The position numbers and the translations under genes were made by a program. A stretch of DNA of 64,000 nt, taken from Planctomycetota bacterium. GTDB taxonomy: Bacteria; Planctomycetota; Planctomycetia; Pirellulales; Pirellulaceae. The notes beneath the pieces were generated by a model, which was given only the letters and a program-made list of their open reading frames with translations, was not told where the DNA came from and did no database searches. Each line of letters begins with the position of its first letter. The first letter of the stretch is position 1. The stretch is taken from the NCBI GenBank assembly GCA_026692865.1, contig JAPLNI010000026.1:94395-158394 (forward strand), read 5' to 3'. Positions 16,956 to 33,490 of the stretch are shown piece after piece.

Positions 16956-18743
16956 ATGTCCTCAATCGCAATCAGACATCACAAAGTCGTCTACTCGCCC
17001 TGCGAAGTAGTCACACTATCTGTCTTCGTTTTGTTGTTTTTCGCAATCTGTCCCGTGGCTCAGCACGCGTCGGCACAAGACCCGCTCGCCGAGCAACTCC
17101 TCAGTAACCCCAGCGTACTACCAAGCCCACAACAGGTGCCTTCGAATCCAAAACTACAAGCGACGGTTTTGCCGCTTGCACCGCTGCAGAACGACCCGAA
17201 GGATCGCGTCTCGATTCAAAGCAATCTGGACCAGATTACCCTTGTAACTCGAGATGCTCCGCTATCGACAGTTCTCTCGATGATCGCCGAACAACAGGGA
17301 TTAAACATCGTCACAGGTGAAGATGTTAGTCAGCAGGTAAACGTAACACTCAACAACGTACGTCTGGTCGATGCGTTAGACGCTATCCTTGCAGTCCATG
17401 GCTATACTTGGACACGCCAGAACAATATCGTGATCATTTCCAGCATGAGTAGCGAACGAAAGACTTCACCGGCCGTTCAGGGTCGAATGATCCGTGTTTT
17501 TGAACTCAATTACATCCTTGCGAGCGATGTGGATAGGGTTGTGAAGGGACTGATGTCACCACTTGGACAATCCTTCATCAACCAAACAAGTACAAAAGAG
17601 CAACGCAATGCACACGAGCAGTTGGTCGTCGAAGACCTCCCTCCCTACGTCGATCGGATCGCGGAGTACATCGCTCAGGTCGATTCCATGCCCCGTCAAG
17701 TAGTCGTCGAAGCGAACATCCTCCAAGTCACGCTTACCGACAACAATCGCCACGGAGTCAACTTTAATCAGCTGGCTCGAATCAGCAATACGAACATCAA
17801 CTTTGAAACAATGGGACTTGCCACCGGTACTGCCCCAGCCTCGGCACTAAGAGTCGAAGGCTCTGACCTAACAAGTTTGATTGATTTACTAAAGACCACT
17901 AACGATACAAAGACCCTTGCTTCTCCAAAGGTAGCAGTACTCAATGGCCAGCAAGCAAGAATCTCTGTTGGCGGTCAACTGGGATACCTACTTACGACAG
18001 CGACTAATACCAGCACCTTGCAAAGTGTTAGCTTTCTTCCCTACGGTGTCGTACTAGACGTGACACCGATTATTACCGATGATGGCCGAGTGTTAATGAC
18101 TGTTATGCCGCAAGTTTCAACAGCTCGCATCAATCCAACCTCGAAACTGCCCGAGAGCGAATCGACCGAAGTTTCGACCACAGTCATGTTATCGGAAGGT
18201 CAAGCGATCATTATCGGCGGTCTCATTAAAGAAACGAGCAACGACGGACAGAACAAGATCCCATTCTTTGGTGACTTATGGGTAGTGGGTAGGCTCTTTC
18301 AAAGTCGCAATCGCCTTCGCGAACGCAACGAGATTATCGTCACGCTCTTGCCTCGTATTGTCAGACCGGGCGACTACTGTGCATTTGGATCCGAAGAAGA
18401 TCATGCTCAAGCGACCACTCCACTGCTTGACCGCAATATTAACCCAATCGATCGAAGCCATTGGGAAGGTTTGTTACCAGACGCATCGCAGCGCCGCGTA
18501 CACGGGAATTGGTTTCGAAGATCGAAAACGGATACTTCGGTACCAACACCAGACGGTTCCATCCCCGTGGCAGTCGAGACACAATTCATGGGCCCCCTCT
18601 ACCCGGGCAGTTTGCCTGCGAATCAACAAGGCCAGTTAGCTTTTCCATCAGACGCGTTGCCTGCGCCGCAAGGCATGGTCCGGACGGTCCCAGTCCCGAC
18701 GGTCCCAACGGAGAATCCCCAGCCTTGGAAACTTGCGCCGTAG
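16956..18743 (+). CDS. Type II/IV secretion secretin (GspD/PilQ-like)
   Basis: 595-residue outer-membrane channel subunit. A signal peptide covers residues about 18-41 (ending QHASAQ). An STN/N0-like module follows at about 90-160 (LSMIAEQQGLNIVTGEDVS), then an N-domain with VVVEANILQV, and the secretin barrel domain from about residue 320: LASPKVAVLNGQQARISVGG, VTPIITDDGRVLM, IIIGGLIKE near 417 and PFFGDLWVVGRLF. The C-terminal 100 residues are Pro-rich and probably disordered. It lies near two operons encoding pilus/T2SS inner-membrane and pseudopilin parts, so it is probably their outer-membrane pore. Confidence 0.92.
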   Translation: MSSIAIRHHKVVYSPCEVVTLSVFVLLFFAICPVAQHASAQDPLAEQLLSNPSVLPSPQQVPSNPKLQATVLPLAPLQNDPKDRVSIQSNLDQITLVTRDAPLSTVLSMIAEQQGLNIVTGEDVSQQVNVTLNNVRLVDALDAILAVHGYTWTRQNNIVIISSMSSERKTSPAVQGRMIRVFELNYILASDVDRVVKGLMSPLGQSFINQTSTKEQRNAHEQLVVEDLPPYVDRIAEYIAQVDSMPRQVVVEANILQVTLTDNNRHGVNFNQLARISNTNINFETMGLATGTAPASALRVEGSDLTSLIDLLKTTNDTKTLASPKVAVLNGQQARISVGGQLGYLLTTATNTSTLQSVSFLPYGVVLDVTPIITDDGRVLMTVMPQVSTARINPTSKLPESESTEVSTTVMLSEGQAIIIGGLIKETSNDGQNKIPFFGDLWVVGRLFQSRNRLRERNEIIVTLLPRIVRPGDYCAFGSEEDHAQATTPLLDRNINPIDRSHWEGLLPDASQRRVHGNWFRRSKTDTSVPTPDGSIPVAVETQFMGPLYPGSLPANQQGQLAFPSDALPAPQGMVRTVPVPTVPTENPQPWKLAP

Positions 18744-18802
18744 TACGATTTCTATTTCGCAAATCTAGTTTAAAGATTGGGGTTCGTTTTGAAGTGGCTT
18801 AA

Positions 18803-18844
18803 GCTTCCAGCCTGAGTAGTGAGCCGGAATCACAGGCTGGAAGC
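18803..18844. terminator. Bidirectional hairpin between convergent genes
   Basis: GCTTCCAGCCTG (18803-18814) and CAGGCTGGAAGC (18833-18844) form a perfect 12-pair stem with an 18-base loop. It sits between the plus-strand secretin and the minus-strand tip-like gene. There is no long U-run. It may be a terminator or a dispersed palindrome. Confidence 0.6.
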
Positions 18845-18867
18845 CTATGTCACATGAAAGCCAACAT

Positions 18868-20628
18868 CTACTGAATCGAGCTTGTATTCAATCGCATCTT
18901 GGGAGGATCCGCAAAAAATCCCGGGGGCGGGTTCAGGATCATGTCAGACGGAAAATTGATTTCAAGATCGTTCGACGTCACGGTAACTTTTTGAGGTGTC
19001 ATCACAGGCCCAGTTAACTTCGCTACTCCATCGAGAATGACATCACCTATCGCGATGATTGGTCCAGTGATAACACTCGGGTAAGACTCGCTTACGACCG
19101 TATTCGAGTTGCCAAGATAGGGTGCGGTGGATGGATTCAGATTGACTCCAATGGCCGCTTCGCTGAGCGCATAATTTGACGAACGATCTTCCAGCGGAGC
19201 GTTGGCAATTATAGCAGGGAAGTTTCTGCCAACGGGTTCCCAAGAGATGGCGTTCTCGATTTCAACTTTATTCGCATTCAAAACAAGGATCGTTCCATTG
19301 ATGCGACAATCACGAATGAGTAAGTCCTGCCCCGAGGCGTCGATGCTGTAGACTCCGTTTGCCGAAACGATCCCACTACCAAACGGGTTGGATGAGCTAC
19401 CAAATAAAACGTTCTCGATGTAACGCGTCCCGGGTAATCTGTCATTGTTAAGTAGGCTCACACCATCAATATGGTAGTTACTCGACTTCGAGCTTCTAAT
19501 TTCTAAATCGGCGTTAGTCAATGTCCCTGACCAAGTTACGCCTAGAGTGCGCGTAACCAATTTCCATGTCCCAGCATCCACCGAAACTCCCTCCCCGGAT
19601 ATAACCAAGGGTAGTGCCGAACCCGAATAAGAGATCGATATCGTCGGATAGAAAACTTGGTCTTCGACGGCTCTTACCCAGAATGAGACAGTGTAGTTCC
19701 GTCCTTTTAACATGTGCGCCGTGATGTTCTGTACTGGTGAACTAACAAGGAGGCTTCTGCCGCTTACAAGGCATGCCGCAGTTCCTGACCTTTTCACCGC
19801 TGTATCGCGTGTCAGGGTACAACCGGATGTTGTCCAGTTTGATGTATTCGTTTCGAAACCACCGTTGACGATCAATTCGGTTCCACCCGTGGGAAGATCG
19901 TTGACACCCAATGCAACGGCATTATCATCAAGATAGTAACTGCCAACATAACTGGTTGAAGTTGGATTGAAATCTGGCGATTTCATAGGCCAAACTCCGC
20001 CGATTCTCTTCCTTTGCAAATAGCCGTTACCAGTACATCCATTGGCTGCGTGGCAGTTCAGGTTGACCGCAGGATTCCCCGTGGCCTTGATCTTATCATT
20101 ACTAAAAACCCAGTTATTGGATGTGGCATTACATTTATCAAATTCAATATCTTGCGTTGCATAAATCGCGGATCGACAAGCGGCGTAGAGTTGGTTCTGT
20201 GGCTCTAGATAAGCAGTTGCAGTTTGCTGTGCTGAACCAAAAGTGCCAACCGACGTGACGATGATTGGATCGGTCGTTTGATTGGCGACGATCCCGTCGT
20301 CTGGGTCGGTAAGCGTTACTGAAAAACTCCCGCCGGTCGTCGTGCGACTTACTGGAACGCCATTGGCAAACTGCGAACGCCAACCTGTATCCGTGAGTAT
20401 TCGATGTTGAACGAATTCAAGCCCAGACTGAGCAAGCTTTCTAGCGTTGGCCGCCTGCGAAGTCGAATCATTCATTCGTCGCTGGACGCGCACCGACTGG
20501 AGGCTCGCTACGGCTAGGCACACAACAATGAGACTGGTTCCCATTGCCATCACGTAGATGGTCCCTGAACGATCCTTCGATCGGTGAAGAGACTTACTTC
20601 CACTTTTAAGCTTTGCCAGATGGACCAT
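18868..20628 (-). CDS. PilX/GspK-like minor pilin fused to a carbohydrate-binding module
   Basis: 586 residues. After a basic N-terminus, a single hydrophobic helix (YVMAMGTSLIVVCLAVASL, about 26-44) with SG before it and no Glu at +5 resembles PilX or GspK, the tip-complex prepilins that lack Glu5. The helix continues into ARKLAQSGLEFVQHRIL, typical of PilX. Residues about 248-396 read as a CBM4/9-like beta-sandwich: ELIVNGGFETNTSNW, a central FWVRAV strand and YHIDGVSLL at its end. A polar C-terminal region follows, possibly beta-helical. It is the last gene of the minus-strand prepilin operon. Sugar binding at a pilus or pseudopilus tip is inferred from the fusion. Confidence 0.72.
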   Translation of the reverse strand: MVHLAKLKSGSKSLHRSKDRSGTIYVMAMGTSLIVVCLAVASLQSVRVQRRMNDSTSQAANARKLAQSGLEFVQHRILTDTGWRSQFANGVPVSRTTTGGSFSVTLTDPDDGIVANQTTDPIIVTSVGTFGSAQQTATAYLEPQNQLYAACRSAIYATQDIEFDKCNATSNNWVFSNDKIKATGNPAVNLNCHAANGCTGNGYLQRKRIGGVWPMKSPDFNPTSTSYVGSYYLDDNAVALGVNDLPTGGTELIVNGGFETNTSNWTTSGCTLTRDTAVKRSGTAACLVSGRSLLVSSPVQNITAHMLKGRNYTVSFWVRAVEDQVFYPTISISYSGSALPLVISGEGVSVDAGTWKLVTRTLGVTWSGTLTNADLEIRSSKSSNYHIDGVSLLNNDRLPGTRYIENVLFGSSSNPFGSGIVSANGVYSIDASGQDLLIRDCRINGTILVLNANKVEIENAISWEPVGRNFPAIIANAPLEDRSSNYALSEAAIGVNLNPSTAPYLGNSNTVVSESYPSVITGPIIAIGDVILDGVAKLTGPVMTPQKVTVTSNDLEINFPSDMILNPPPGFFADPPKMRLNTSSIQ

Positions 20629-20641
20629 TTTGTTTCCCTAC

Positions 20642-21247
20642 CTAGTTGGTACTACTAAAACCCGCAAGCGAGCTTGCACCCGATGACCCGGAAGTTCGGT
20701 AGGTTACTAGGCGACATACTTCCGAGCTACCAACACGGACGACAACGGTGATTCGATAGACTCCCGCATAAGTACCCACAACAGAGTTCCAATTGGTTGA
20801 GGAAACCCTGTCTACTGAAACCGTGCGAGTAAAACTGGTATAGCCATTGAGGGTAATTCCGGCCCGCGACTTCGGAGGAGAGTCAACGAGATTACGATAG
20901 TCATCAACATCATCAAAATCGCTTCGATCGGTTCCCAGCTCACTAGTTCCTGGTCCGAAGCCGCAATCGCAAGGTTGATCACGCATGGGTAATTGAGTGA
21001 TCTCCGCAATCATCGATTCCGCGATCGCGAGACCTCTTATCCTATTCGATTCCGCAACTTGACTTCGGCGTGACGCGGCAATCGTGGAAAAGGATGTCAC
21101 CATCAAGACACCCACAATAATCGTTGATATCGAAACTTCCGCTTGACTGAGTCCCGAACGCGACTTTTCGGATACAGACATCAACCAAGGAGACTTCCTT
21201 GAAAGTGGTTTCGCAGAGTTTGAAGTATTCGGTTTCTGAAGACGCAT
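20642..21247 (-). CDS. PilV/GspI-like minor prepilin
   Basis: 201-residue prepilin-like protein. SGLSQAEVSISTIIVGVLMV shows Gly before the cleavage point, Glu at +5 and a hydrophobic helix, although the residues between are polar rather than the usual FTL. The helix continues into a region with SNRIRGLAIAESMIAEI, which is characteristic of the PilV/GspI family. A CDCG motif in the globular domain may form a disulfide. The leader of about 36 residues is long. The start overlaps the stop of the upstream PilW-like gene by one base, which supports translational coupling. Confidence 0.72.
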   Translation of the reverse strand: MRLQKPNTSNSAKPLSRKSPWLMSVSEKSRSGLSQAEVSISTIIVGVLMVTSFSTIAASRRSQVAESNRIRGLAIAESMIAEITQLPMRDQPCDCGFGPGTSELGTDRSDFDDVDDYRNLVDSPPKSRAGITLNGYTSFTRTVSVDRVSSTNWNSVVGTYAGVYRITVVVRVGSSEVCRLVTYRTSGSSGASSLAGFSSTN

Positions 21248-22323
21248 TATGGAATCTCCGGACCGCTTGGCAAGCGAACAGAAGTCTCTATCTTTTGCAG
21301 TCCGGCACGAGAGCTGGTTAGATTTAAGTTGACATTACTTAAGAATTTTCGTCGGCTGTTGTATCCGTTGTAGAAGCCATAGGCGTAGAACCGCAAGTCG
21401 CGACTGTTATCAGAAGCGGTCCAACTCGTTCCGCCGTTTATCGACCTAATCAAATTGGTGTTGCTGGGCATTCCCACTCCGTTTTCAACGAACTGGACCC
21501 TTGCGACATCGCCAGTACCACCCGCATACGTAAGCGTGATACACAGCGGCGTTCCTGGTGACTGCCAACTGATCGGTGCTATGGGGATTTCAAGCCATTG
21601 GTAGCTTTCGCCTAATCGCCACTCCGCGAGTTTCACTTCCGCAAGAATTGGAGCTATCGGAAGACGTGATGCTGTGTTGGCCCGAGTAACACGAATACAA
21701 AGAACACCATCTTTGTTACTATCGGCAGCACAAACCATAACGCTGATCGCACCAAGATCCCATCTAGCACTAGGTGGGGTGTTAGGAATTATATATTGTC
21801 CAATACTATTGGAAGAATTGATGACTTGTTCACGAAAAATGCCATTCTGAAAAGCGTCGCTCGATTTCAAAACGGCAACCTCCGAACGGAAATGATTAGG
21901 TGGAGGAGATGAAGCGAGTGTATTGCTTGTTTGCAAATTGAAATCTCCAACGTCATCAAATAGGACCGATAGTGGATTCTGGTTGTACTTCCAAAGTATC
22001 TTATTCGCATTCGGACCCGACGAGCCGCCCCATTCGTATCGCATTTGCTCTGGCAGCCTATCTCCATCTCGATCTGGTACTACGAATTCAATGTGAGTAG
22101 CCGAAGATGAGACGAGCGAAACTGCACTTTCGATATCTGACGCGATTTGCGTAACAGCGGTAGATAAGTCGTAAGAACCACGAAACAAGGTATCGTCCTG
22201 CGATTTAGCTCGCATCATGATCGTTACACACATCGACATTGCACCGATCAGCACCGTCGCAGTCGGAAGCGTGATCATCATCTCCAATAAACTCAATCCA
22301 TTTCGGCGTTCTCTTCGACTCAT
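21247..22323 (-). CDS. PilW/GspJ-like minor prepilin
   Basis: 358 residues with a short basic leader (RRERRNG) and a type III signal sequence GLSLLEMMITLP: Gly before the cut and Glu at +5. A hydrophobic helix and then a beta-rich domain follow. PilW/GspJ proteins are low-abundance subunits of the pilus or pseudopilus tip complex; the length and the position after a FimT-like gene agree. Internal sequence (SVLFDDVGDFNLQ) resembles the GspJ-type core. Its start codon overlaps the FimT-like stop by four bases and its stop overlaps the next start, so the cluster is tightly coupled. Confidence 0.76.
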   Translation of the reverse strand: MSRRERRNGLSLLEMMITLPTATVLIGAMSMCVTIMMRAKSQDDTLFRGSYDLSTAVTQIASDIESAVSLVSSSATHIEFVVPDRDGDRLPEQMRYEWGGSSGPNANKILWKYNQNPLSVLFDDVGDFNLQTSNTLASSPPPNHFRSEVAVLKSSDAFQNGIFREQVINSSNSIGQYIIPNTPPSARWDLGAISVMVCAADSNKDGVLCIRVTRANTASRLPIAPILAEVKLAEWRLGESYQWLEIPIAPISWQSPGTPLCITLTYAGGTGDVARVQFVENGVGMPSNTNLIRSINGGTSWTASDNSRDLRFYAYGFYNGYNSRRKFLSNVNLNLTSSRAGLQKIETSVRLPSGPEIP

Positions 22324-22823
22324 TGAATGGTAACCCGTCCCGAAATCGGTGCCAGATCAACTCGCTTTTGGAAAGCCCCCGCTCGAACTGTCACCGAGAT
22401 GCCTTGATCAGGCATACCGAAACTATTGAACGCGACGGATACGCTAGGTAGTTGTGATGAAGGATTGGCAGCAGTCACCAATGACGATATATCCACTTGG
22501 TATGGCGATTGATTGAATGAGACACGATAAGGCTGGCTGACACGATCTAGGGAGCTTAAGCCATTGATTACACAACTATCATCGCTAGTGGTAAAAGTTA
22601 CAGTTTGTGTGGAGTTGGTTTGCCTAGCGCTTCTTTGCGTTGTGGCAATATCTTGAGCGATTCTTTGAGCCGCGATATCAACGCGAAAACGAGCGAGACT
22701 GTCGGAATAGACTGGAACAGCGACTGCAGCAAGAATTCCGATAATCATGATCGTGACACTAAGTTCCAGTAGCGTAAAGCCAGATTTTCGTTTGGGCGAA
22801 GCTATCGAATTAGACACTCGCAT
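22320..22823 (-). CDS. FimT/GspH-like minor prepilin
   Basis: 167 residues with a canonical prepilin site: KSGFTLLELSVTIMIIGILA, cleaved after Gly by a prepilin peptidase that is not encoded in this window. The helix runs into VPVYSDSLARFRVDIAAQRI, the typical FimT/GspH continuation, and the C-terminal half is beta-rich. These subunits cap or prime the pilus; some FimT proteins bind DNA through a C-terminal basic region, but I see no clear basic tail here. It starts 5 bases after the HD-GYP gene stop. Confidence 0.82.
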   Translation of the reverse strand: MRVSNSIASPKRKSGFTLLELSVTIMIIGILAAVAVPVYSDSLARFRVDIAAQRIAQDIATTQRSARQTNSTQTVTFTTSDDSCVINGLSSLDRVSQPYRVSFNQSPYQVDISSLVTAANPSSQLPSVSVAFNSFGMPDQGISVTVRAGAFQKRVDLAPISGRVTIQ

Positions 22824-22828
22824 GTGAA

Positions 22829-24502
22829 TTACCCGGCAGCCATATGAGTAATCGATTTTGCGATGCGACGCATGAGACTGCCGCTCGATTTTGAATCGAG
22901 GTCATTAGTACAAATCGAAGTCGTCAATTCGATCGAATGGGGCTCTATTTCATTGTTCTCAATACACTGAAGGAATGCGGCAACGATATCTGAGTCCCAA
23001 GTTTTGCTTGCTTCAGACCGTAAGATGGATTCGGCTTTTTCGCTAGGCATACCCGAACGGTACGGACGATCACTTGTCATCGCGTCGTAGGCGTCGGCGA
23101 CCGCTAGGATACGTGCCGCCAATGGAATAGATTCTCCTGTAAGACCATCCGGGTAACCACCGCCATTGACGGCTTCATGGTGGTGCAGAACGCCTGGCAA
23201 TACGTAGTCCAGTTTCTGCAAATGTTTGAGAATGGTGAAGCCAATTTCAGGATGCTTCTTGACGATCGCAAACTCTTCGTCCGTAAGTTTACCTAGCTTA
23301 CCAAGTATCGAATCGGGAACACCGATCTTGCCGACATCGTGAAGCAAGCCAGCCATGTATATTTTTTCGCATTCGTCGGCATCTAGTCCGATTCGAGTTG
23401 CAATACGTTTCGCATACGTTGCCACACGATCACTATGGCCACAAGTATAAGGATCTTTGGCATCGATTGCGTTGATGATAGCCCGAACGATTCCCGTCAA
23501 GAGGTTCTCTTGTTCATCAAAAAGCTCACGATTCTTGGCGTGAGAAGCCATGATGTTTGCCGCAGCAACTAGTAAACCAGCTTCAAAAGTACCGAACGTG
23601 ACGGTATTGGGATCTACGGTTTGAAAATCAGGCATCTCCTCAGAATCATTCAAACCCAATTTATTGAACGCCAGAAGCCATCCATAAACGCGCGGCCCTT
23701 TCGATACACTGGTCGCAATACAACTTCTTAAACCGGGGTAGCTAGGGATAAATTTCTCAGTCAATTTTCGATTGAGAACTCTCGGCCCTCGTGCAAGGCT
23801 AGGCATCGCATCTTCGAGAAAACGGACATAAGTTGTTTGTTCTACGTTGCAAAAACCCGTTGACGCGATGCGATTCAAGTCTGGTCGTAAAGCAACGTGA
23901 TTGGCATCCAATACAACTGGAATGAAAAGTATGGATTCCGCGCGGATTACTTTCACTAAATCTGGGAGACACTTGACTGCGATCGACTCGATCGAATGTT
24001 TGGGACCGCAAAGATCAAGTTGCTCATTCGCAGTTCGGAACCAAGTCAGTTCCTCAAAGTCTTGAGTCACTTGAACAATGAAGCTTTCCGTAAGGTTTCT
24101 GGCGTCATTTAGTTCGTCGCGATAACGCCCCGCCTCGATACGAGCGGAAACAAGCGAACAAACGAGAGATTCGTTTTGACAGGCAAGAGTCAATCCAATC
24201 ACGATTGGCCTACTCGAGTCCGGGGAAGTATTGACAACGACAATCATCTGGTCGTCGTATCGACAAACGAGAGGAGCAGAACTTCGGTTATCAAGCATTT
24301 CTAACGTGGCCAGCATTCGTTGGTCGGTTAACGCAACACCTTCCATACCTCCGACCTGCACCCAACCCAATCGTGAGCGTTGAAGCACAACGGCCGATGC
24401 ACCCAACTCGGACGCAAGGGTTGCGGCGACTTCGAATGCCGATTGGATTGAAATGGGATTGCTTGACATACTTTCAAACTGCCATAAAGGTGTTGTATCC
24501 AC
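22829..24502 (-). CDS. HD-GYP domain cyclic-di-GMP phosphodiesterase
   Basis: 557 residues. The C-terminal HD-GYP domain is complete: HSDRVATYAKRIA near 352, LLHDVGKIGVP near 386, HPEIGFTIL, HHEAVNGGGYPDGL near 439 (Asn in place of the usual Asp) and VADAYDAMTSDRPYR. HD-GYP enzymes hydrolyse c-di-GMP. The N-terminal part (about 1-310) has a GAF-like pattern without a recognised ligand. No membrane segment is seen. It is the first gene of the minus-strand operon with three prepilins and the tip-like fusion, and is divergent from the major prepilin gene. This makes local control of pilus activity by c-di-GMP plausible. Confidence 0.92.
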   Translation of the reverse strand: MDTTPLWQFESMSSNPISIQSAFEVAATLASELGASAVVLQRSRLGWVQVGGMEGVALTDQRMLATLEMLDNRSSAPLVCRYDDQMIVVVNTSPDSSRPIVIGLTLACQNESLVCSLVSARIEAGRYRDELNDARNLTESFIVQVTQDFEELTWFRTANEQLDLCGPKHSIESIAVKCLPDLVKVIRAESILFIPVVLDANHVALRPDLNRIASTGFCNVEQTTYVRFLEDAMPSLARGPRVLNRKLTEKFIPSYPGLRSCIATSVSKGPRVYGWLLAFNKLGLNDSEEMPDFQTVDPNTVTFGTFEAGLLVAAANIMASHAKNRELFDEQENLLTGIVRAIINAIDAKDPYTCGHSDRVATYAKRIATRIGLDADECEKIYMAGLLHDVGKIGVPDSILGKLGKLTDEEFAIVKKHPEIGFTILKHLQKLDYVLPGVLHHHEAVNGGGYPDGLTGESIPLAARILAVADAYDAMTSDRPYRSGMPSEKAESILRSEASKTWDSDIVAAFLQCIENNEIEPHSIELTTSICTNDLDSKSSGSLMRRIAKSITHMAAG

Positions 24503-24746
24503 TGGAGAATTAGCTTGGTCGACGAAGCCGCTTCTCCAATTCTAGGATGGATATATGTAGCACATAAACTTTGACGAATATGGAAAATTATCTGATAAAA
24601 TAATTTGCACGACGTTAGTTCTGGGCGTAGTGTTCCTCAGCTTCCAACGGTGAGTCTCAAGTAAGAGGCTTCGGAGCACAGATATCGATATATCTGAATG
24701 TGAGAAAGCGTTGAATTACCTCTGTCCAGCTTGTTAAATGGCTTAA

Positions 24747-25181: not shown

Positions 25182-25189
25182 TCAAACCC

Positions 25190-25603: not shown

Positions 25604-25607
25604 CATC

Positions 25608-27071
25608 ATGATCGCCGCGCAGTCCTATCGTAGTTTGACGCAGCGTCTAAGTGAGCAGTACTTTCTGTTCGGTTTAGCTGGATTGTTCTGTTTTGTTCTC
25701 ACAGCAGTCTATCTTTCTCTGCAAGGATCGTTTCTCAATTTAAGTGTAGCCGCTATTGGTATCCCGCTTGGGCTACTACTGATCGGCTCTTTTGCCTTGA
25801 GACGAACCTCTCATTGGCACGAAAATATCGAGCGTCAGCTTACTCATTTTGCCAACGGCTCTGCCGACGGAACCGGTCAAGGAGCCGGTCAATCGGTCGC
25901 CGCGCTGCGACCCTTGCCATCGGTCGATCCCTTTGCAACCGGTTGGAACCAGTTGTTAGCTCGAGTGAAAGAGCACTCGGACTGGAATGGGGTTGAACGG
26001 CGGCTATCAGAGGCATTACACAGTCAGCAAGCGAAAAGATGGGAAGGTGTTTTCCAAAACCTATCGGAGGGAATCGCAATCTGTGATTCAGACGGGCAGA
26101 TCATCCAACTCAATCGTTCCTTTGCAACATTATTGAAGCGAGCTGATTCAAAATCGCTGGTTGGATTAAAAATCCTGAGTTTACTTTCTGATCTTGTAGA
26201 CGAACCATCACTGGAGCGAATCCGTGGATTGAACAGTTGCCATGCGACACAAGTTATCGAGATAAATCGCTCATCCGATTTATCGCAAGGTGTTTGGAGA
26301 TTGAGTCGGATCATGCAATCAATCGACAGTAGCAATCCAGGCGATTCGATTTGGACGCTTCGGGATATTACGCAGCAAAAACTTGCAGAAAAAGCTCGCG
26401 AACAATTCGTATTCACCGCAACGCATGAGCTCCGAACGCCTTTGGCAAACATCAGAGCGTATGCTGAGACGTTGTCGCTTGCTGGCGACATTCCACCTGC
26501 GCAACAGCAGGAGTTCTACAACACGATAAACAACGAAGCGACTCGACTCGCCCGCTTCGTCGATGAGCTACTGAACATTAGCCAAATGGAAGCCGGCGCG
26601 ATCACCATTGAAAAACATGAAATTCAACTCGATCGACTGCTCGATGAAATCTTAGCCAGTCAGCGTCCTATGTCGAACGAAAAAAAGCAAACCTTCGATT
26701 ACTCGGTCGCTCCCAAGTTACCGAAAGTCATTGCTGACAAAGACAAACTGGCGGCCGCGCTCACGAATTTGGTTAGCAACGCTATCAAGTACACTCCCGA
26801 CGGCGGTAAGGTTACTGTCAAAGTTGACGCCGATGCTTCACGGGTTCTCTTTATTGTGGAAGACAGCGGGATCGGTATCTCCGCTGAAGACTTACCGAAG
26901 CTGTGCAGCAAGTTTTTCCGCAGCAGCGACGAACGCGTCCGAGCGATCGTCGGTAGCGGTCTTGGATTAGCCTTCTCTCAAGAAGTCGCACGCTTACATG
27001 GCGGAAACATTTCGATTCGTAGCCAGTTGAATCAAGGTTCTTGCTTTACACTTGAACTTCCCATTCGCTAG
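25608..27071 (+). CDS. Membrane PAS-domain sensor histidine kinase
   Basis: 487 residues: two membrane helices (about 18-38 and 45-64), a linker, a PAS domain (about 143-255, FQNLSEGIAICDSDGQIIQL), HisKA with TATHELRTPLANI (His about 273) and a HATPase domain with NLVSNAIKYTPDGG, EDSGIGIS and GSGLGLAFS. The architecture is like PhoR/WalK-type kinases. It directly follows the lone receiver and precedes the STAS gene inside the pilus operon, so the receiver is its likely substrate. No periplasmic loop of note separates the helices, so it probably senses membrane or cytoplasmic signals. Confidence 0.93.
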   Translation: MIAAQSYRSLTQRLSEQYFLFGLAGLFCFVLTAVYLSLQGSFLNLSVAAIGIPLGLLLIGSFALRRTSHWHENIERQLTHFANGSADGTGQGAGQSVAALRPLPSVDPFATGWNQLLARVKEHSDWNGVERRLSEALHSQQAKRWEGVFQNLSEGIAICDSDGQIIQLNRSFATLLKRADSKSLVGLKILSLLSDLVDEPSLERIRGLNSCHATQVIEINRSSDLSQGVWRLSRIMQSIDSSNPGDSIWTLRDITQQKLAEKAREQFVFTATHELRTPLANIRAYAETLSLAGDIPPAQQQEFYNTINNEATRLARFVDELLNISQMEAGAITIEKHEIQLDRLLDEILASQRPMSNEKKQTFDYSVAPKLPKVIADKDKLAAALTNLVSNAIKYTPDGGKVTVKVDADASRVLFIVEDSGIGISAEDLPKLCSKFFRSSDERVRAIVGSGLGLAFSQEVARLHGGNISIRSQLNQGSCFTLELPIR

Positions 27072-27086
27072 CCAGGTAGGAATGCT

Positions 27087-27422
27087 ATGTACCCATGCAA
27101 ACGTTCTGGAGCCGTGGATACGATCAGTGGCTCGCAACCTCTGACTCGCGATCATCAATCGGCATTCCTCAATTCGGTTGAGTCCTGTTTCGGCAACGGC
27201 CAACCGCGAATTGTATTTGACATGATTCACGTGCCACTTATGGATAGTGTCGGCATGGAAGCATTGTTGGAGGCACGTGATCGTTGCCATAAGCTTGGTG
27301 GAAGTATTGTTCTTGCAAGGCCAACACCTCTTTGTCGCGACATCCTTCGCATCAACGGGATCGATAAAGAACTCAACGTTTACGACGATGCCGTGAAGGC
27401 GATGGGGAGTTTCGCGAAATGA
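27087..27422 (+). CDS. STAS domain protein
   Basis: 111 residues of the SpoIIAA/STAS fold. The core strand-helix FDMIHVPLMDSVGMEALLEA contains the MDSVG site, where the Ser is the phosphorylation site of anti-sigma antagonists, and a later strand SIVLARP also fits. Such proteins switch partner kinases or anchor signalling complexes. No SpoIIAB-like kinase or PP2C phosphatase is adjacent. The stop overlaps the start of the GspE-like gene by four bases (ATGA), indicating translational coupling. This makes the assembly ATPase or the upstream histidine kinase candidate partners; that is inferred from context. Confidence 0.82.
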   Translation: MYPCKRSGAVDTISGSQPLTRDHQSAFLNSVESCFGNGQPRIVFDMIHVPLMDSVGMEALLEARDRCHKLGGSIVLARPTPLCRDILRINGIDKELNVYDDAVKAMGSFAK

Positions 27423-29200
27423 ACCTCACGCTCGATTCCAATATTGCATCGGACCAATCACTGGAACTTCCCGTCGCCAGGCCCCGCGCGTCCAGTCCTA
27501 GCCGCCTAGCGGTCATGGCAACGCCGCTAGGCGAGAACCTCGTTCGCGCAGGAATTCTCACCGATGGAGATCTAGAAGCTGCACTCCAGCAACACTCCAA
27601 TAGCAACACACAACTCGGCGAGACCTTGCTTGAGATGGGTTTCGTGGAGGAGGACACGCTGCTCTTATTCCTCGGTCAACAACTGGGCGTTCCTGCAGTT
27701 CGACTACGAAGTGGATTAGTAGATCCCACTGTAGTTCGTTTGATTCCACGTTCCAAAGCGGAAGCATTTTCGGTACTTGGGTTATTCTGTGTTCGCGGTC
27801 GATTAACGGTGGCAATGGCCGAGCCATCGAACTTGCGACAGTTAGATGAACTGGAGCGATTGACGGGAATGCCGATCCGTCCGGTCCTGGCAATGCGGTC
27901 ATCGATCGATCGGATGCAGGCGCATTGCTACGAAGAGAATTTTGCTGTCGATGCTGTGACAGCCGACCTCGAAGAGAACTCGCTCGAGATCCAAGCCGAC
28001 GCCGTTGATATATCGCTGGCGGATGTTGATTCGCTGACCGATGGCAGCCCGATCATTAACTTAGTCAACTACATCATCGTCCACGCAATTCGTCAGAAGG
28101 CCAGCGACATCCACATCGAAGCAGGGCAGCAATCGTCCCTGGTACGCTATCGAGTCGACGGGCACTTGCGAGAGGTACTTCGACCTCGTCGCGAGTTTCA
28201 TCCGGCAATGATTTCTCGGATCAAAGTCATTGCAAAACTCGATATCTCGGAGCATCGAATGCCTCAAGATGGTCGCGTTCACTTGACCGTCGATGGGCGC
28301 GAGATTGACTTACGTGTCTCGACGCTTCCAACCATTCTCGGCGAGAAGGTCGTGATGCGAGTTCTTGACCGCAAGAACGTCACGTTCTACCTGGATAAGC
28401 TCGGAATGCCTGAGGACGCACTGACCAAGACGAAGGCTTTGCTCAAAAGACCGCACGGCCTGATACTCACAACAGGACCTACTGGCAGTGGTAAGACGAC
28501 AACTCTTTATTCCGCCGTCGAACTTATCAAATCAATAAAGCGAAATATCGTCACAGTCGAAGATCCAGTCGAGTATCAGCTAGACCTAATTAACCAGGTT
28601 CAAGTTAGCAATACTAAGACAATGAAATTCTCAGAAGCATTGCGATCGATCTTGCGTCAAGACCCTGACGTAATCATGGTGGGTGAGATTCGTGACGCAG
28701 AGACGGCAGCGATTGCAATCCAAGCCGCTCTCACAGGCCACTTAGTCCTAAGCACACTTCACACCAACGACAGTTTCAGCGCTGTAACGCGTCTCCTGGA
28801 CATGGGAATCGAGCCTTTTAAACTATCGGCAGCGTTGTTAGGCGTGATTGCTCAGCGACTTGTTCGCACTATATGTCCGTCCTGTAAGACCGGCTATTAT
28901 CCTCCGTCCGAGCAGTTGGACGCGATCCGTTACGAAGGAGATCGACGTCGTCAGTTTACGCGTGGGCAAGGCTGTCGTGAGTGTTATGACACTGGATTCA
29001 AAGGCCGTACAGGCATCTATGAAGTTTTCTCCATCGATCGTGAAACTCGCGAATTGATTTCTTCAAATGCCTCGGTAGATGAACTTCGCGCATACCATCG
29101 TCGTCAAGGCGGAGGATCTTTAATGGACGAAGGAATTCATCTGGCCGAAGCAGGACGCACAACCCTAGATGAGATTATCGAAGTTGCTTACACGGACTAA
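27419..29200 (+). CDS. gspE: GspE/PilB-family assembly ATPase
   Basis: 593-residue cytoplasmic hexameric ATPase powering pilus or pseudopilus extension. The N-terminal region (about 35-190) is an MshEN/N1E-type domain (GENLVRAGILTDGDLEAAL), a fold known to bind c-di-GMP in MshE and some PilB proteins. The ATPase core has GPTGSGKT at about 353-360, an Asp box VTVEDPVEYQL, Walker B GEIRDAET near 422, a His box TLHTND and a tetracysteine zinc motif (CPSC near 486, CREC near 520). A nearby HD-GYP gene fits c-di-GMP control. Its start overlaps the STAS stop. Confidence 0.95.
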   Translation: MNLTLDSNIASDQSLELPVARPRASSPSRLAVMATPLGENLVRAGILTDGDLEAALQQHSNSNTQLGETLLEMGFVEEDTLLLFLGQQLGVPAVRLRSGLVDPTVVRLIPRSKAEAFSVLGLFCVRGRLTVAMAEPSNLRQLDELERLTGMPIRPVLAMRSSIDRMQAHCYEENFAVDAVTADLEENSLEIQADAVDISLADVDSLTDGSPIINLVNYIIVHAIRQKASDIHIEAGQQSSLVRYRVDGHLREVLRPRREFHPAMISRIKVIAKLDISEHRMPQDGRVHLTVDGREIDLRVSTLPTILGEKVVMRVLDRKNVTFYLDKLGMPEDALTKTKALLKRPHGLILTTGPTGSGKTTTLYSAVELIKSIKRNIVTVEDPVEYQLDLINQVQVSNTKTMKFSEALRSILRQDPDVIMVGEIRDAETAAIAIQAALTGHLVLSTLHTNDSFSAVTRLLDMGIEPFKLSAALLGVIAQRLVRTICPSCKTGYYPPSEQLDAIRYEGDRRRQFTRGQGCRECYDTGFKGRTGIYEVFSIDRETRELISSNASVDELRAYHRRQGGGSLMDEGIHLAEAGRTTLDEIIEVAYTD

Positions 29201-29239
29201 ATCCACGAAGACAACACCCCCACGAATCGGTAATCACCA

Positions 29240-30514
29240 ATGAAGTTTCAGTATCTCGCGAAAGATCAATATGGAAAGTCGATCGATGGCTTTCTTGATT
29301 GCGATAGCGCGCTTGCTGTTCGACAGCAATTGCGATCGCAAGGCCTATTCGCTTTGAAAGTCACGCCTGCCGAATCAGCGTCAAAGGGAAAATTACTCTT
29401 CGCGAATAAATCTAAAGCGTCAGGAGTAACGTCGACCGACTCGACGTGGAACAAATCGTTTCTCAAGGTGGGATCATCACGAGTTAAGACTTCTGATTTG
29501 ATCGTCGCGTTTTCACAATTGTCGATCATGTGTCAATCCGGAGATGATTTAGCAGAAGCACTGAAGACCGTTGCGAATCAGTGCTCATCTCCAAATCTTC
29601 AGCGTGTTTTGTTAGCAACGTATCAGGACGTTTCGCAAGGGGTAAAGTTCTCGGTTGCGCTGACAAAGCACCCTCACGTGTTTAGCGAGTCGATGGTTGC
29701 CGCACTGGCTGCGGGCGAGCAAGCTGGTCGCGTCGTCGATGTGCTCGAAAGAACAACTCGCATGCTTCGCAAAGATCAGAACTTAAAAAGTTCGGTCCTG
29801 GCGATGTTGATGTATCCGGCTGTTCTTTGTTCCATCACCTTCGTCGTTATCTGTTCGATGCTGTTTTTTGTACTTCCTCAATTCGCAACTGTCTTTCGCG
29901 ATATGGATCGTCCGGTTCCACCACTTACGAGCATTTTACTTGCCGTTGGCGAAGGCCTGCGTCAACAATGGATACCAATTGCAATCGCTGCCGGAACTTT
30001 GATAGGTTTGGGAATTACATTTCGGCAGCACCCGCGAGTGCAGCGCGCTATTGATTCATTTGTTTTGAACGCCTTGATCGTAAAGGATTCAATTCGTGCG
30101 TTGATCACAGGTCGAACGTTTCGTCTGTTGGGAACGATGCTCGAAAACGGTGTCCCATTGCTAGACAGCGTCCGACTTTGTCGCAAGGCGACTCGCAACG
30201 TTCTATTTCAAGAGTTGTTTGCAACTGTCGAGCAAGAGATTCTGCAAGGCGAAGGGATGAGCCAGACACTGATGAATGCTTCGTTCTTGCCAGCCGGTGC
30301 GGCTCACATGATCTCCACGGGCGAACGAACTGGAAAGCTACCCAACGTTCTGCAATCGGTCGGCGAGTACTTCGAAGACGAAGGTGAACGACGCTTGAGA
30401 ACCATAGTTAAAATGCTTGAGCCTGCCATCATCATTGGCTTAGGCGGTGTCGTGGCGGTGGTCGTGCTGTCGATTATTCTGCCTTTGCTGGATGTAACAA
30501 CCGCATCTTCTTGA
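29240..30514 (+). CDS. gspF: GspF/PilC-family inner-membrane platform protein
   Basis: 424 residues with two repeated T2SSF cytoplasmic domains and three membrane helices (about 190-215, 243-262 and 395-418). Motifs include FSQLSIMCQSGDDLAEAL near the start of the first domain, ALAAGEQAGRVVDVLE and the equivalent MISTGERTGKLPNVLQ in the second. The N-terminal KFQYLAKDQYGKSIDGFL is the standard beta-rich start of this family. It recruits the assembly ATPase and forms the base of the fibre. It lies 39 bases after the GspE-like gene. Confidence 0.95.
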   Translation: MKFQYLAKDQYGKSIDGFLDCDSALAVRQQLRSQGLFALKVTPAESASKGKLLFANKSKASGVTSTDSTWNKSFLKVGSSRVKTSDLIVAFSQLSIMCQSGDDLAEALKTVANQCSSPNLQRVLLATYQDVSQGVKFSVALTKHPHVFSESMVAALAAGEQAGRVVDVLERTTRMLRKDQNLKSSVLAMLMYPAVLCSITFVVICSMLFFVLPQFATVFRDMDRPVPPLTSILLAVGEGLRQQWIPIAIAAGTLIGLGITFRQHPRVQRAIDSFVLNALIVKDSIRALITGRTFRLLGTMLENGVPLLDSVRLCRKATRNVLFQELFATVEQEILQGEGMSQTLMNASFLPAGAAHMISTGERTGKLPNVLQSVGEYFEDEGERRLRTIVKMLEPAIIIGLGGVVAVVVLSIILPLLDVTTASS

Positions 30515-30576
30515 GCTGACACTTCAAAGTGGTCAGCACGACTCACGCTCTTTTGTACGACCTATGGTTACGTACC

Positions 30577-31737
30577 ATGCGTACTTTGTTATCTAAAATA
30601 GATCGAATCAGCGAGCGTTTTTTTAGTCGATCCTATGGATGGACTGGAATTGAAATCGGCTGCCATTGCCTGAACATGGCACAAGTCCGGAAGGTTGAAG
30701 ATCGTTGGCAATTAGCCGCAGTTTGGACTGTCGAGCATCCGGTCCCTTATGCCATCCAAACGGATTCGGAAACGCCACCGGTCGAAGAAACCTTTGGATG
30801 GTTATCGCCCAGAGATATTTTCGAATGTGGACTCTCTGCGACTGTAGCTAATCTCGATAACCTGGATTCGCTTTTTGTAGGAAAAAACTGCGCAGCAACT
30901 CTCAACGATGGATTGATCTCCTATCGCGAACTAGAATTACCGACTAGTGATAGTGCCGATTTGCAATCGATGGTGCATTCGGAGATTGCGATCGAGACAG
31001 AGTGCGATCTAGAAGACATCTTAACGGACTGCTGGGAGTTGCCTCAAAATCGACCCCGCTCTACAGCGTCGAGCTTTGGCGGCGTCTCTCTCCAGCGATC
31101 CACGGCGCTGGTACTCGCGAGCGATCTATTGCAAGCGGGTTTCGAGTGCCAAATATTGGACGCGATGCCTTGCGCGATGGCGAGGGCAACATCGATCGCA
31201 CTCGATAACTCAAGCGAGGATGGTCACGCTACAGCTCTTGCAATTGATCTCGGCTATCAACAAGCAACCATAACACTTGTTGATGATGGTCGACCAATCT
31301 TGACACGAACGCTTCGTAACCATGGGCTAGTGCAGCTGCTCTCGCAAATTGCATCTTCTTTTGCAATTAGCCTTTCCGATGCCGAAACGCTTTTGTTTCA
31401 ATCACCTTTTAATCCGACAATCAGTCCGGGCCAAAATGATGACTTTTCTAATCCTCTGAAGCATGAGCTGAACGGATACTTGATGTCGTTATCAAACGAA
31501 ATTGAAAAGACGATTCTCTATGCGAATCGTACTTATCGGACGGTACTACCAGTGCAAATTTTGCTAATGGGCGGCGGTGTACGAATACCCTACATCGAAA
31601 AATCGATCGAACAGCGAGTCGACCTGCCAACGCATTTGTGGTCGATTGATTTATCACCAAATTTATTCGGTGTGAAAAACCCCGCGATTTTTGCGATCGC
31701 TTGCGGACTCTCTGTTTTGGCTTGGGAGGGCGTATAG
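30577..31737 (+). CDS. pilM: PilM-like actin-fold pilus assembly protein
   Basis: 386 residues. GIEIGCHCLNMAQV is the first phosphate-loop strand of the actin-like fold, and IDLGYQQATITLVDDGRP and LLMGGGVRIPYIE are the second phosphate and adenosine motifs of the PilM/FtsA group. PilM binds nucleotide and the cytoplasmic tail of PilN. The ATG at 30577 is preferred; an upstream in-frame GTG at 30529 would add 16 residues. Gene order gspF-pilM-pilN-pilO-pilP matches type IV pilus alignment complexes rather than the fused GspL of classical T2SS. Its stop overlaps the PilN GTG as TAGTG. Confidence 0.87.
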   Translation: MRTLLSKIDRISERFFSRSYGWTGIEIGCHCLNMAQVRKVEDRWQLAAVWTVEHPVPYAIQTDSETPPVEETFGWLSPRDIFECGLSATVANLDNLDSLFVGKNCAATLNDGLISYRELELPTSDSADLQSMVHSEIAIETECDLEDILTDCWELPQNRPRSTASSFGGVSLQRSTALVLASDLLQAGFECQILDAMPCAMARATSIALDNSSEDGHATALAIDLGYQQATITLVDDGRPILTRTLRNHGLVQLLSQIASSFAISLSDAETLLFQSPFNPTISPGQNDDFSNPLKHELNGYLMSLSNEIEKTILYANRTYRTVLPVQILLMGGGVRIPYIEKSIEQRVDLPTHLWSIDLSPNLFGVKNPAIFAIACGLSVLAWEGV

Positions 31738-32390
31738 TGCACGTCAATTTGCTACCAAAATCTTTTTTGTGGCGCAGAGCGATTCGTTTAAGGGTGCGCC
31801 GATGGGGATTCTTCTATGGTGCACTGGCCATTGCACTGCTGTGTTGGAAAGTACCATTGATCCTAAGATGGAATTCTCATCAAAACCAGCTTCAAGAAAT
31901 CCACGCTGCCACCAATCATATACGTAATATGCAGGCCGAGCGAATAAGTCTCGCGAAGGAAGTCATGTCGTTTGAGCACAAGGTCGGCCAATTAAAGCAA
32001 GCCACTACAAACGATCAAACAACATCCATACTCGGTATTCTCGCTAATGGAGTACTCGCAACCGAGCGAGAAGTTCAGATTCAAGAGATGCAAGTCTTAG
32101 TAAGCCCCGATGTCAATGACTCGCCGAATTCAATGGATGTAGCCGCTAGCCGCCCGCGAACTAAAAAATTTGTTTCCGCAGATAGTAAATCTTCTGAGCA
32201 ATCGCAGCGCAACGAGTACCGATTGACTTTGCGTGGCGTTGCAACCAAAAGCGAGGCAATCACCGCTTTTGTGAATTCACTTCAGGGATCCAAGGCCTTT
32301 CCAATCGTCGAACTTCGATCAACGCAGGAGCGGCTTGTTTCCAATCAATCCGTTCACGAATTTCAATTGGAGTGCATAGGCTATGAGTAG
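31737..32390 (+). CDS. pilN: PilN-like alignment protein
   Basis: 217 residues starting at a GTG that shares one base with the PilM stop (TAGTG) and is preceded by a strong GGGAGGG Shine-Dalgarno six bases upstream. The N-terminus VHVNLLPKSF is the conserved PilN tail that docks into PilM. One membrane helix (WGFFYGALAIALLCW, about 23-40) is followed by a coiled coil and a C-terminal ferredoxin-like domain (EYRLTLRGVATKSEAITAF). It forms the inner-membrane alignment complex with PilO. It overlaps the PilO gene by eight bases. Confidence 0.85.
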   Translation: MHVNLLPKSFLWRRAIRLRVRRWGFFYGALAIALLCWKVPLILRWNSHQNQLQEIHAATNHIRNMQAERISLAKEVMSFEHKVGQLKQATTNDQTTSILGILANGVLATEREVQIQEMQVLVSPDVNDSPNSMDVAASRPRTKKFVSADSKSSEQSQRNEYRLTLRGVATKSEAITAFVNSLQGSKAFPIVELRSTQERLVSNQSVHEFQLECIGYE

Positions 32391-32973
32391 TCCGCTGAGT
32401 AGTTCTTTGAGAAAATACAGCCCGTCACTGCGAAACGAACGCTTTCTGCACATCGGAATGGCAATACTTACCATTCTGATCCTTGTGGGAGCCTACTCGC
32501 TTCGGTGCACGATCGCACAGAACGTTGATTCGATCGCTTCCGATATCCAAGATTGTGAAATTCTACGCGATTTAGAAACCGAGCTCACAGATTCGATCAC
32601 TGAACTTGATCTAAAGAAGCAAAAACTAGAGAAAGAGTATCTTGCGTTAATGGGTCGCATCCCAAAGAAGATCGCTGACTCCGATATACTATCGTCCGTA
32701 CGGAAAAGTGTGCAAAACGCTCGGTGTAGCTTACTAGATTTTAGGCCGACGATTACTCAGCGAAACGGCGAGTACCATACTCGGTCATACGATTTTCAGT
32801 TAGAAGGGAGTTTTAAAAGCATCTTTCAGTTCTTTATCACCCTTAGCGAAGCGCCACTTACTTTTCAAACAAGTCGACTTAAGATTTCTGAACCTAGTAC
32901 GCCGGGAGGCCCTTGCCATCTCGATCTAGAACTAAAAGTTATTTTCGATCACAGCTGGAATCCTTCGGCATAA
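32383..32973 (+). CDS. pilO: PilO-like alignment protein
   Basis: 196 residues: a short cytoplasmic N-terminus, one membrane helix (about 24-41, GMAILTILILVGAYSL), a coiled coil rich in Glu, Leu and Lys (about 50-90) and a C-terminal ferredoxin-like domain with SYDFQLEGSFKSIFQFF, the pattern of PilO/GspM. It pairs with PilN in the periplasm. The gene overlaps PilN by eight bases and is followed seven bases later by the PilP-like gene. Confidence 0.83.
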   Translation: MSSPLSSSLRKYSPSLRNERFLHIGMAILTILILVGAYSLRCTIAQNVDSIASDIQDCEILRDLETELTDSITELDLKKQKLEKEYLALMGRIPKKIADSDILSSVRKSVQNARCSLLDFRPTITQRNGEYHTRSYDFQLEGSFKSIFQFFITLSEAPLTFQTSRLKISEPSTPGGPCHLDLELKVIFDHSWNPSA

Positions 32974-32980
32974 CTTAGCG

Positions 32981-33490
32981 ATGAATTCACCGTCTATGAA
33001 TAACAACCATAAGATCGCATTGATTCCGGTACTTGGATTGGTTCTTGTATATTTAGTTATGCGAAGCCGCACCGGTAGCGAACAAACCTTGGCCGAGCCT
33101 CCCGCCAGCATAGCGCTGAATGAGACGTCATCCGGCACCCCAAACCAAGAGCCAACAAAGCCTGTTGCCCAAGCAATCTCGAACTGGCCGAAGTTTGAAA
33201 TTCACGATCTTCAAAATACAGATCCATTCGACCGAAAAGCAGTGTTTCCCGATCCTCCAGAAGCCACAGCCTCGAACGATCCAAACATAACTTTAGTTGC
33301 CACAGCAGATCGCTCTCCGGAGGAAGCTTTGAAGCCAATCAAGATTCAAGCCATCTTTCAATCACCCAGTGGAATCACTGCGCTGGTCGAAAACCGTGTC
33401 GTTCATATCGGTGATCGGCTTGCAGACGGATCGGAAGTAATCGGTATCACGCCAGAACAACTTCTACTCATGAAACCCACGATTCATTAA
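32981..33490 (+). CDS. PilP/GspC-like periplasmic connector
   Basis: 169 residues with an N-terminal helix (IALIPVLGLVLVYLVM, about 12-27), a Pro/Ser/Thr-rich linker and a small C-terminal beta domain (IKIQAIFQSPSGITALVENR, then VVHIGDRLADGSEVIGI). This is the HR/PilP pattern that links the inner-membrane PilNO complex to the secretin. There is no lipobox, so GspC-like anchoring by the helix is as likely as PilP. A second ATG five codons in is possible. It is the last gene of the operon; no prepilin peptidase or PilT retraction ATPase is present nearby. Confidence 0.72.
   Translation: MNSPSMNNNHKIALIPVLGLVLVYLVMRSRTGSEQTLAEPPASIALNETSSGTPNQEPTKPVAQAISNWPKFEIHDLQNTDPFDRKAVFPDPPEATASNDPNITLVATADRSPEEALKPIKIQAIFQSPSGITALVENRVVHIGDRLADGSEVIGITPEQLLLMKPTIH

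Follow-up and report, generated by a model that had tools for sequence, protein, structure and literature searches.

A type IV pilus-like locus of Planctomycetota with conserved, linked signalling genes

The window analysed here is a stretch of 64,000 nucleotides from a Planctomycetota bacterium of the family Pirellulaceae (assembly GCA_026692865.1, contig JAPLNI010000026.1, positions 94,395 to 158,394). Between its positions 16956 and 33490 it carries a pilus-type locus of 16 genes, all present as open frames. The list of parts is ordinary; the arrangement is unusual and conserved, and the locus represents a type IV filament machine of variant form, equipped with a regulatory module of its own. 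The genes of a response regulator, a PAS histidine kinase and a STAS protein sit between those of the major pilin and of the assembly ATPase, and this order recurs in other planctomycetes. We propose, as a reading about evenly poised between right and wrong, that the locus encodes a signal-gated adhesive or sugar-binding type IV pilus-like machine regulated by its own linked genes.

Gene order and its conservation

The source genome comprises 5.55 Mb in 72 contigs with a completeness of 99.42%, and the guanine-cytosine content is flat along the locus. The genes form a divergent operon pair, from 18868 to 24502 on the minus strand and from 24747 to 33490 on the plus strand, to which a separate secretin gene is added. 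The minus strand, from 24502 to 18868, encodes an HD-GYP protein followed by the H-, J-, I- and K-like prepilins. The plus strand, from 24747 to 33490, encodes the major pilin (G), the regulator, the kinase, the STAS protein, the ATPase (E), the platform protein (F) and PilM, PilN, PilO and a PilP-like protein. A sequence-only reading of this DNA had already listed the secretin, the five prepilin-like proteins, GspE, GspF, PilM, PilN, PilO and the PilP-like protein, in two divergent operons plus a separate secretin gene; all were recovered in place, the profiles support them and the layout is confirmed. The signalling genes, which it named in its title only, leaving the HD-GYP protein, regulator, kinase and STAS protein undescribed, are real and conserved.

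A search with PilM gave matches in 22 of 60 relatives, the source genome included. The surroundings of the locus were examined in 19 of the 22 (G037 and G023 were left out): the cassette is present in 14 and lacking in G004, G015 and G020, and the other two (G022 and G027) show a second arrangement. The ATPase, searched at an E value of 1e-180, was detected in at least 52 of 296 genomes and 29 of 122 genera of the order, where no value fell between 1.9e-205 and the threshold, and in at least five of 392 genomes of the phylum (source genome included in these counts). The phylum and order figures are lower bounds because only three and four candidates per genome, respectively, were scored. Two of the 52 genomes (G557 and G615), where the ATPase gene lies at a contig edge, were left out. 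The gene order was counted in 58 loci, namely the window and 57 other genomes, with profiles built from the earlier loci (39 of the 58 were outside profile building); each count uses the loci with enough flank, the flank limits being our own choice. The order was found, whole or partial, in all 57 other genomes, so the locus is more than a chance assembly.

At the ATPase gene, the STAS gene was found in 56 of 57 loci, the kinase in 55 of 56 and the regulator in 50 of 52; the lone locus counted as lacking STAS (G469) does hold a STAS gene. The corresponding values for the machine genes are 58/58 for the platform protein, 57/58 for PilM, 55/57 for both PilN and PilO, 54/55 for the PilP-like protein, 49/52 for the major pilin and 36/41 for the secretin. 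The signalling genes match the machine genes in constancy. The HD-GYP gene lies on the opposite strand in 40 of 49 loci. The cassette is patchy within one planctomycete order, occurs beyond it in the class (G210 and G348) and has a looser form in the phylum (G116 and G173, the most distant loci, which keep STAS beside the ATPase and differ in the remainder). In the second arrangement (loci L172 and L171 of G022 and G027) the genes follow one another on a single strand in the order H, M, N, O, secretin, kinase, regulator, STAS, E and F; the ATPase is more distant (41 to 42% identical) and the same signalling module adjoins it. Kinase and STAS profiles (E up to 1e-4) matched nothing in the other GspE/PilB loci of the same genome, on contigs C58, C42 and C24, nor at gsp and hofB of E. 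coli. Plasmid-borne loci gave no match either: five of the six fetched (all but L168), from Pseudomonadota, Bacillota and Deinococcota, entered this control, flanked by 4 to 5 kb.

Signalling genes and the MshEN domain of the ATPase

The response regulator (25190-25603, plus strand, 137 residues) consists of a receiver without output domain (Response_reg 1.4e-18), whose acceptor Asp is kept in 53 of 53 sequences. The membrane histidine kinase (25608-27071, plus strand, 487 residues) displays HATPase_c (7.3e-28), HisKA (3e-15) and PAS_8 (1.4e-6) domains and hydrophobic stretches within residues 16-65; its H-box and G-box patterns are each found in 56 of 56 sequences and its N-box in 20 of 56 with a narrow pattern. 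The stand-alone STAS protein (27087-27422, plus strand, 111 residues, STAS 2.5e-12) has at the DSxG position a Ser in 51 of 56 sequences and a Gly in the remaining five; this serine is the residue that is phosphorylated in STAS proteins of the SpoIIAA/RsbV type. In the window, the stop codon of STAS and the start codon of the ATPase gene share the tetranucleotide ATGA, and the STAS frame ends in ATGA in 44 of 56 loci. The HD-GYP protein (22829-24502, minus strand, 557 residues, HD_5 1.3e-40), which heads the minor-pilin operon, is a predicted cyclic di-GMP phosphodiesterase, the HD and HHExxxGxGYP motifs of such enzymes both being present in the window copy. Among 41 HD-GYP proteins, HD and the following Lys are kept in all, and HHE and GYP in 40; the exception is G024, where the gene is split into two frames. 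These alignment-column counts replace narrow-pattern counts (STAS motif 43/56, receiver motif 50/53). A PAS hybrid histidine kinase with a receiver (11503-14562) and a further receiver-only regulator (15080-15523) are encoded near the locus and outside the conserved order.

The assembly ATPase (27419-29200, plus strand, 593 residues) is of the GspE/PilB type (T2SSE 1.6e-141) with an N-terminal MshEN domain (3.1e-17). The cyclic di-GMP motif of MshEN consists of two 24-residue motifs, RLGxx..LxxxLxxQ (PMC5013675). The window ATPase scores 52.4 bits with the model of this motif (NF053729, cut-off 38) and keeps 11 of the 14 motif positions. Among the residues that contact guanine, several Leu and Gly are shared by 54 to 58 of the 58 orthologues (Leu10 57, Gly11 58, Leu25 58, Leu29 57, Leu39 54, Gly40 58), and Gln32 is found in 48, Gln61 in 49 and Leu54 in 49; the complete 14-position motif is present in 4 of the 58, namely those of G024, G059, G533 and G627. 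The genome contains six GGDEF matches above the cut-off, five of them strong, and these proteins could be the source of cyclic di-GMP. Binding of cyclic di-GMP to MshE promotes extension in MSHA pili (PMC7096442). The window ATPase resembles MshE of the Vibrio cholerae MSHA pilus by this domain; unlike there, the motif is partly degenerate, the genes of an HD-GYP protein, a kinase, a regulator and a STAS protein are linked to the machine, and the secretin falls under the MshL cut-off.

The signalling genes could also be neighbours with another target, such as the transcription of the cluster or the general level of cyclic di-GMP, without touching the machine. Receiver-only regulators, STAS and HD-GYP proteins can act in trans, and no fusion among cassette proteins, STAS-ATPase included, was detected in the 58 loci (two multi-domain matches are hybrid kinases outside the cassette). 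Such a role is distinctly unlikely in our view: the linkage is near-constant over the 58 loci, the STAS and ATPase genes overlap, and G022 and G027 keep kinase, regulator, STAS and ATPase together despite a rearranged remainder. In other systems, STAS proteins are known to bind ATPases, as MlaB does with MlaF, and receiver-only regulators to steer pilus motors, as PilG and PilH do.

Class of the machine and genes acting in trans

PilM_2, PilN, PilO, T2SSE and T2SSF are all matched above the Pfam cut-offs. The inner-membrane platform protein of the GspF/PilC type (29240-30514, plus strand, 424 residues, T2SSF 2.2e-50) precedes the actin-like, cytoplasmic PilM (30574-31737, plus strand, the start being either 30529 (GTG) or 30574; PilM_2 8.7e-9; NCBIfam pilM 52 bits, cut-off 133). 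PilN (31737-32390, plus strand, probable start GTG at 31737, VNLLP near the N-terminus; 6.1e-7) and PilO (32383-32973, plus strand; 4.6e-5, 24.0 bits, cut-off 22) follow. The last gene encodes a PilP/GspC-like periplasmic protein (32981-33490, plus strand) with a hydrophobic stretch at residues 9-30, for which no Pfam or other family match was obtained. The secretin (16956-18743, plus strand, 595 residues; Secretin PF00263 2.3e-39) has an STN-type N-terminal domain (1.2e-7). Models of GspC and GspM found no match at E up to 0.1, and GspL only one at E 0.047, on the PilN-like protein.

The ATPase obtains 584.4 bits with the GspE model (cut-off 630.25) and 557.1 with PilB (cut-off 675.65), outside both curated classes; the PilB cut-off is a weak test, as the PilB-like genes beside PilT in the same genome also miss it (619.6 and 635.3). 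With the GspE model, E. coli GspE scores 656.8, and the ATPases of C58 and C42 score 603.8 and 581.5, both under the cut-off. The platform protein is best matched by GspF, under its cut-off. The best secretin model is PilQ (193.1 bits, cut-off 284.35), followed by GspD (166.3 against 351.35) and MshL (157.2 against 250.2), and by the last score the secretin does not belong to the MshL class of the MSHA pilus. These misses partly reflect the distance from model organisms, because the other GspE/PilB genes of the genome miss as well and E. coli GspE passes. The comparison with type II secretion, type IV pilus and MSHA profiles suggested by the sequence-only reading leaves the ATPase and the secretin under all class cut-offs. 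Its description of a hybrid assembly, with a PilM-N-O inner part and subunits of the G/H/I/J/K type, holds, and the assembly fits no single curated class. A superfamily survey (PMC6668835) classes many systems as "generic", and the string "planctomyc" does not occur in its available text.

A tree of 40 ATPases was built with 25 cassette rows picked from the 58. The 25 lie on one side of a branch (ultrafast bootstrap 84, Shimodaira-Hasegawa-like approximate likelihood ratio test 99; 86% of bootstrap trees), so the tree that the earlier reading called for brings the cassette ATPases together; their place among type II secretion and type IV pilus ATPases stays open. No deep placement is claimed because long branches meet and the centre of the tree is open. 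Secretins were compared by profile scores, and the cassette secretin profile gives E. coli HofQ 149.8 bits and GspD 110.3. The cassette PilO profile matches, weakly (29.2 bits), the annotated PilO of Allomeiothermus. The profiles of PilM, PilN, PilO and the PilP-like protein match no E. coli gsp and no E. coli hof genes.

The locus could instead encode a type II secretion system: enzymes would be driven out through the secretin by a short pseudopilus, under the control of the signalling genes. The G/H/I/J/K subunit set and the GspE/GspF-like motor are alike in both; the G and H subunits are best matched by GspG and GspH, and the ATPase scores higher with GspE than with PilB, all under the cut-offs. 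A pseudopilus whose tip contacts a polysaccharase could likewise carry a carbohydrate-binding module there. The E. coli hof genes, from a pilus-type operon taken for comparison, are missed by the M, N, O and P profiles just as gsp is, and these profiles therefore do not decide between pilus and secretion. Against secretion, PilM_2, PilN and PilO pass their Pfam cut-offs and stand in the stead of GspC, GspL and GspM, which are unrecognised here; the secretin and PilO profiles point to HofQ and to the Allomeiothermus PilO; and the genome already holds two other GspE-F-pseudopilin loci, on C58 and C42. We therefore consider secretion doubtful. The earlier reading had hesitated between a fibre and a secretion pseudopilus; Pfam PilM-N-O and a secretin scoring higher with PilQ and HofQ than with GspD favour, at the level of profiles, a pilus over a secretion pseudopilus, and the ATPase and secretin miss every class cut-off.

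The locus shares with type IVa pili the ATPase, the platform protein, PilM, PilN, PilO, a secretin closest to PilQ and five prepilins. It differs from them by the lack of PilT and PilD in the locus, a GspG-like major subunit, a regulator-kinase-STAS module ahead of the ATPase, and an ATPase and a secretin that stay below the cut-offs of PilB and PilQ. Within the window, the assembly ATPase is the only T2SSE-family member, with no PilT beside it, and matches to the prepilin peptidase family are lacking, in agreement with the earlier reading. The genome search which it proposed found both elsewhere. Prepilin peptidase family matches occur on contigs C59 and C58 only, and the label "self-contained" does not hold for this function. 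Two PilT-family ATPases are encoded on C24 and C57 (457.3 and 394.6 bits, cut-off 319.1), and all 20 cassette genomes tested, out of the 57, have a PilT-family gene above the cut-off. The proposal of a non-retracting fibre, drawn from the lack of a nearby PilT, is rejected; because of the PilT-family genes on C24 and C57, the gene content leaves room for retraction.

A competence pilus for DNA uptake is highly improbable. The PilM-N-O-P-Q layout is common to competence pili and two PilT-family ATPases are available in the genome, but the profile matches of the locus include no DNA-uptake family (the search did not extend to ComEC and ComEA elsewhere in the genome) and the tip pilin bears a carbohydrate-binding module.

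The other GspE/PilB loci of the genome comprise those of C58 and C42, with GspE, GspF and pseudopilins, and two PilB-like genes around a PilT on C24. In the tree, the C42 ATPase and E. coli GspE come together, a grouping flagged as subject to long branches. A further ATPase, at C26:14451, is taken to be of the Tad type by inspection rather than by a class profile. Upstream of the C58 GspE, a GspD-like protein of 1249 residues (L018:5331-9080) matches only positions 41-238 of the 600-position GspD model and is not among the Secretin PF00263 matches of the genome; judged from these matches, this type II-like "secretin" may have no barrel.

Minor pilins, the proposed mechanism and its weighing

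The G-like major (pseudo)pilin (24747-25181, plus strand, 144 residues) matches N_methyl (1.7e-6) and the GspG model (5.1e-12, under the cut-off), and the H-like minor prepilin (22320-22823, minus strand, 167 residues) matches N_methyl (1.1e-7) and GspH (1.6e-10, under the cut-off). No N_methyl match was found on the I-, J- and K-like proteins, whose prepilin-like N-terminal segment was recognised by eye only. The J-like protein (21247-22323, minus strand, 358 residues) begins with GLSLLEM; of 28 J-like proteins scanned, 18 match N_methyl, and these do not include the window copy. The I-like protein (20642-21247, minus strand, 201 residues), without Pfam match, is identified by its position, a GLSQAEV segment at the N-terminus and homologues in the same place.

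The K-like minor pilin, placed at the tip (18868-20628, minus strand, 586 residues), carries a CBM_4_9 carbohydrate-binding module at residues 251-380 (4.1e-17). This module is present in 7 of 25 K-like proteins, five of which are identified (the window, G011, G014, G029 and G210; 578 to 608 residues). It was not found in the K-like proteins of G024, G116 and G173, nor in a fragment from G059, and the G001 copy ends at a contig end ahead of the module. The module as a general feature of the fibre was accordingly rejected. A single-sequence fold of the K-like pilin (mean predicted local distance difference test 35.2) was discarded. Near the cassette of G039, a Laminin_G_3 protein is encoded (L084:1004-1996), with PEP-CTERM-like and dockerin-like matches under the cut-offs.

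Minor pilins with grafted non-pilin binding modules, some of them carbohydrate-binding, are known (PMC8179133). The window resembles these modular pilins (Streptococcus sanguinis PilB and PilC, and a survey of more than 1,200) by a binding module on a minor pilin; it differs in that CBM_4_9 is attached to a K-like pilin and the machine has a secretin, a combination absent from the available text of that paper. Planctopirus limnophila and Gemmata obscuriglobus bind gold-dextran on pili-like fibres of their large crateriform structures (fibre width 12 nm in P. limnophila), as described in PMC5394234, whose available text assigns no genes to these fibres. The likeness would lie in a planctomycete fibre that binds a glucan; fibres were observed there and genes alone are considered here. 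By this analogy a sugar-binding fibre is plausible, not shown, and because the K-like pilin bears the module in the lineage of the window, the fibre could be an adhesin for sugars or coated surfaces.

In the signal-gated pilus that we propose, pilins would be processed by a trans-acting prepilin peptidase and assembled by the ATPase and the platform protein under PilM, PilN, PilO and the PilP-like protein. The fibre would be extended through its own PilQ-like secretin, with an H-I-J-K minor-pilin complex at its tip; PilT, if used, would act in trans. Extension would be switched on site, with the assembly ATPase as control point by analogy with MshE. Three inputs would converge on it: cyclic di-GMP, degraded by the HD-GYP enzyme and sensed through the MshEN domain; the STAS protein, probably translationally coupled to the ATPase and possibly docking on it; and the kinase-regulator pair, which may act through the STAS protein or the ATPase. 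A fuller version, improbable as a whole, would be a planctomycete sugar-capturing fibre whose tip carbohydrate-binding module binds polysaccharide at crateriform sites. A switch of a new kind would operate in it: a STAS protein, set by its dedicated kinase-receiver pair, would bind the MshEN-ATPase in competition or in cooperation with locally controlled cyclic di-GMP. A literature search on titles and the start of abstracts returned, among the matches listed, no description of two-component, STAS and cyclic di-GMP wiring, a weak negative with subscription journals mostly outside. If the signal-gated reading is true, a single locus shows a two-component pathway, a STAS switch and cyclic di-GMP wired into a pilus motor, and the conserved cassette offers testable genes for a planctomycete glucan-binding fibre.

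Several observations weigh against this reading. Arg9, Arg38 and Gln32 of MshEN are replaced in the window ATPase (by P, Q and H), and among the 58 orthologues Arg9 is kept in 13, Arg38 in 29 and Leu58 in 22. Arg9 and Gln32 are reported to be important for cyclic di-GMP binding by MshEN (PMC5013675); because they are replaced, binding by the window ATPase is uncertain, and on these residues it may be weak or lost. The ATPase, the platform protein and the secretin lie under every class cut-off checked, and the ATPase tree does not group the cassette ATPase with type IV pili, its deeper order being open. The HD-GYP gene is absent from its expected place in 9 of 49 loci, many loci show no minor pilins near the ATPase (K present in 24/42, I in 26/42, J in 26/42, H in 28/44), and the module occurs only in a minority of K-like proteins. 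The lack of fusions counts in the same direction, and the fibre itself is predicted from genes. About 2.5 kb separate an HD-GYP match from the PilT-type pair on C57, and about 5 kb a receiver match from the C58 ATPase. Having such signalling genes close to a pilus-type ATPase is therefore not entirely unique to the cassette.

Two further genes lie beyond the locus in the window. The adjoining one (34558-36891) encodes a protein similar to ATP-binding cassette transporters, with a His/Gly/Asp-rich stretch, for which ABC_tran is above and ABC_membrane under the cut-off. The next (37120-38166) encodes a DUF1559 protein with a prepilin N-terminus, a possible further substrate of the same peptidase.

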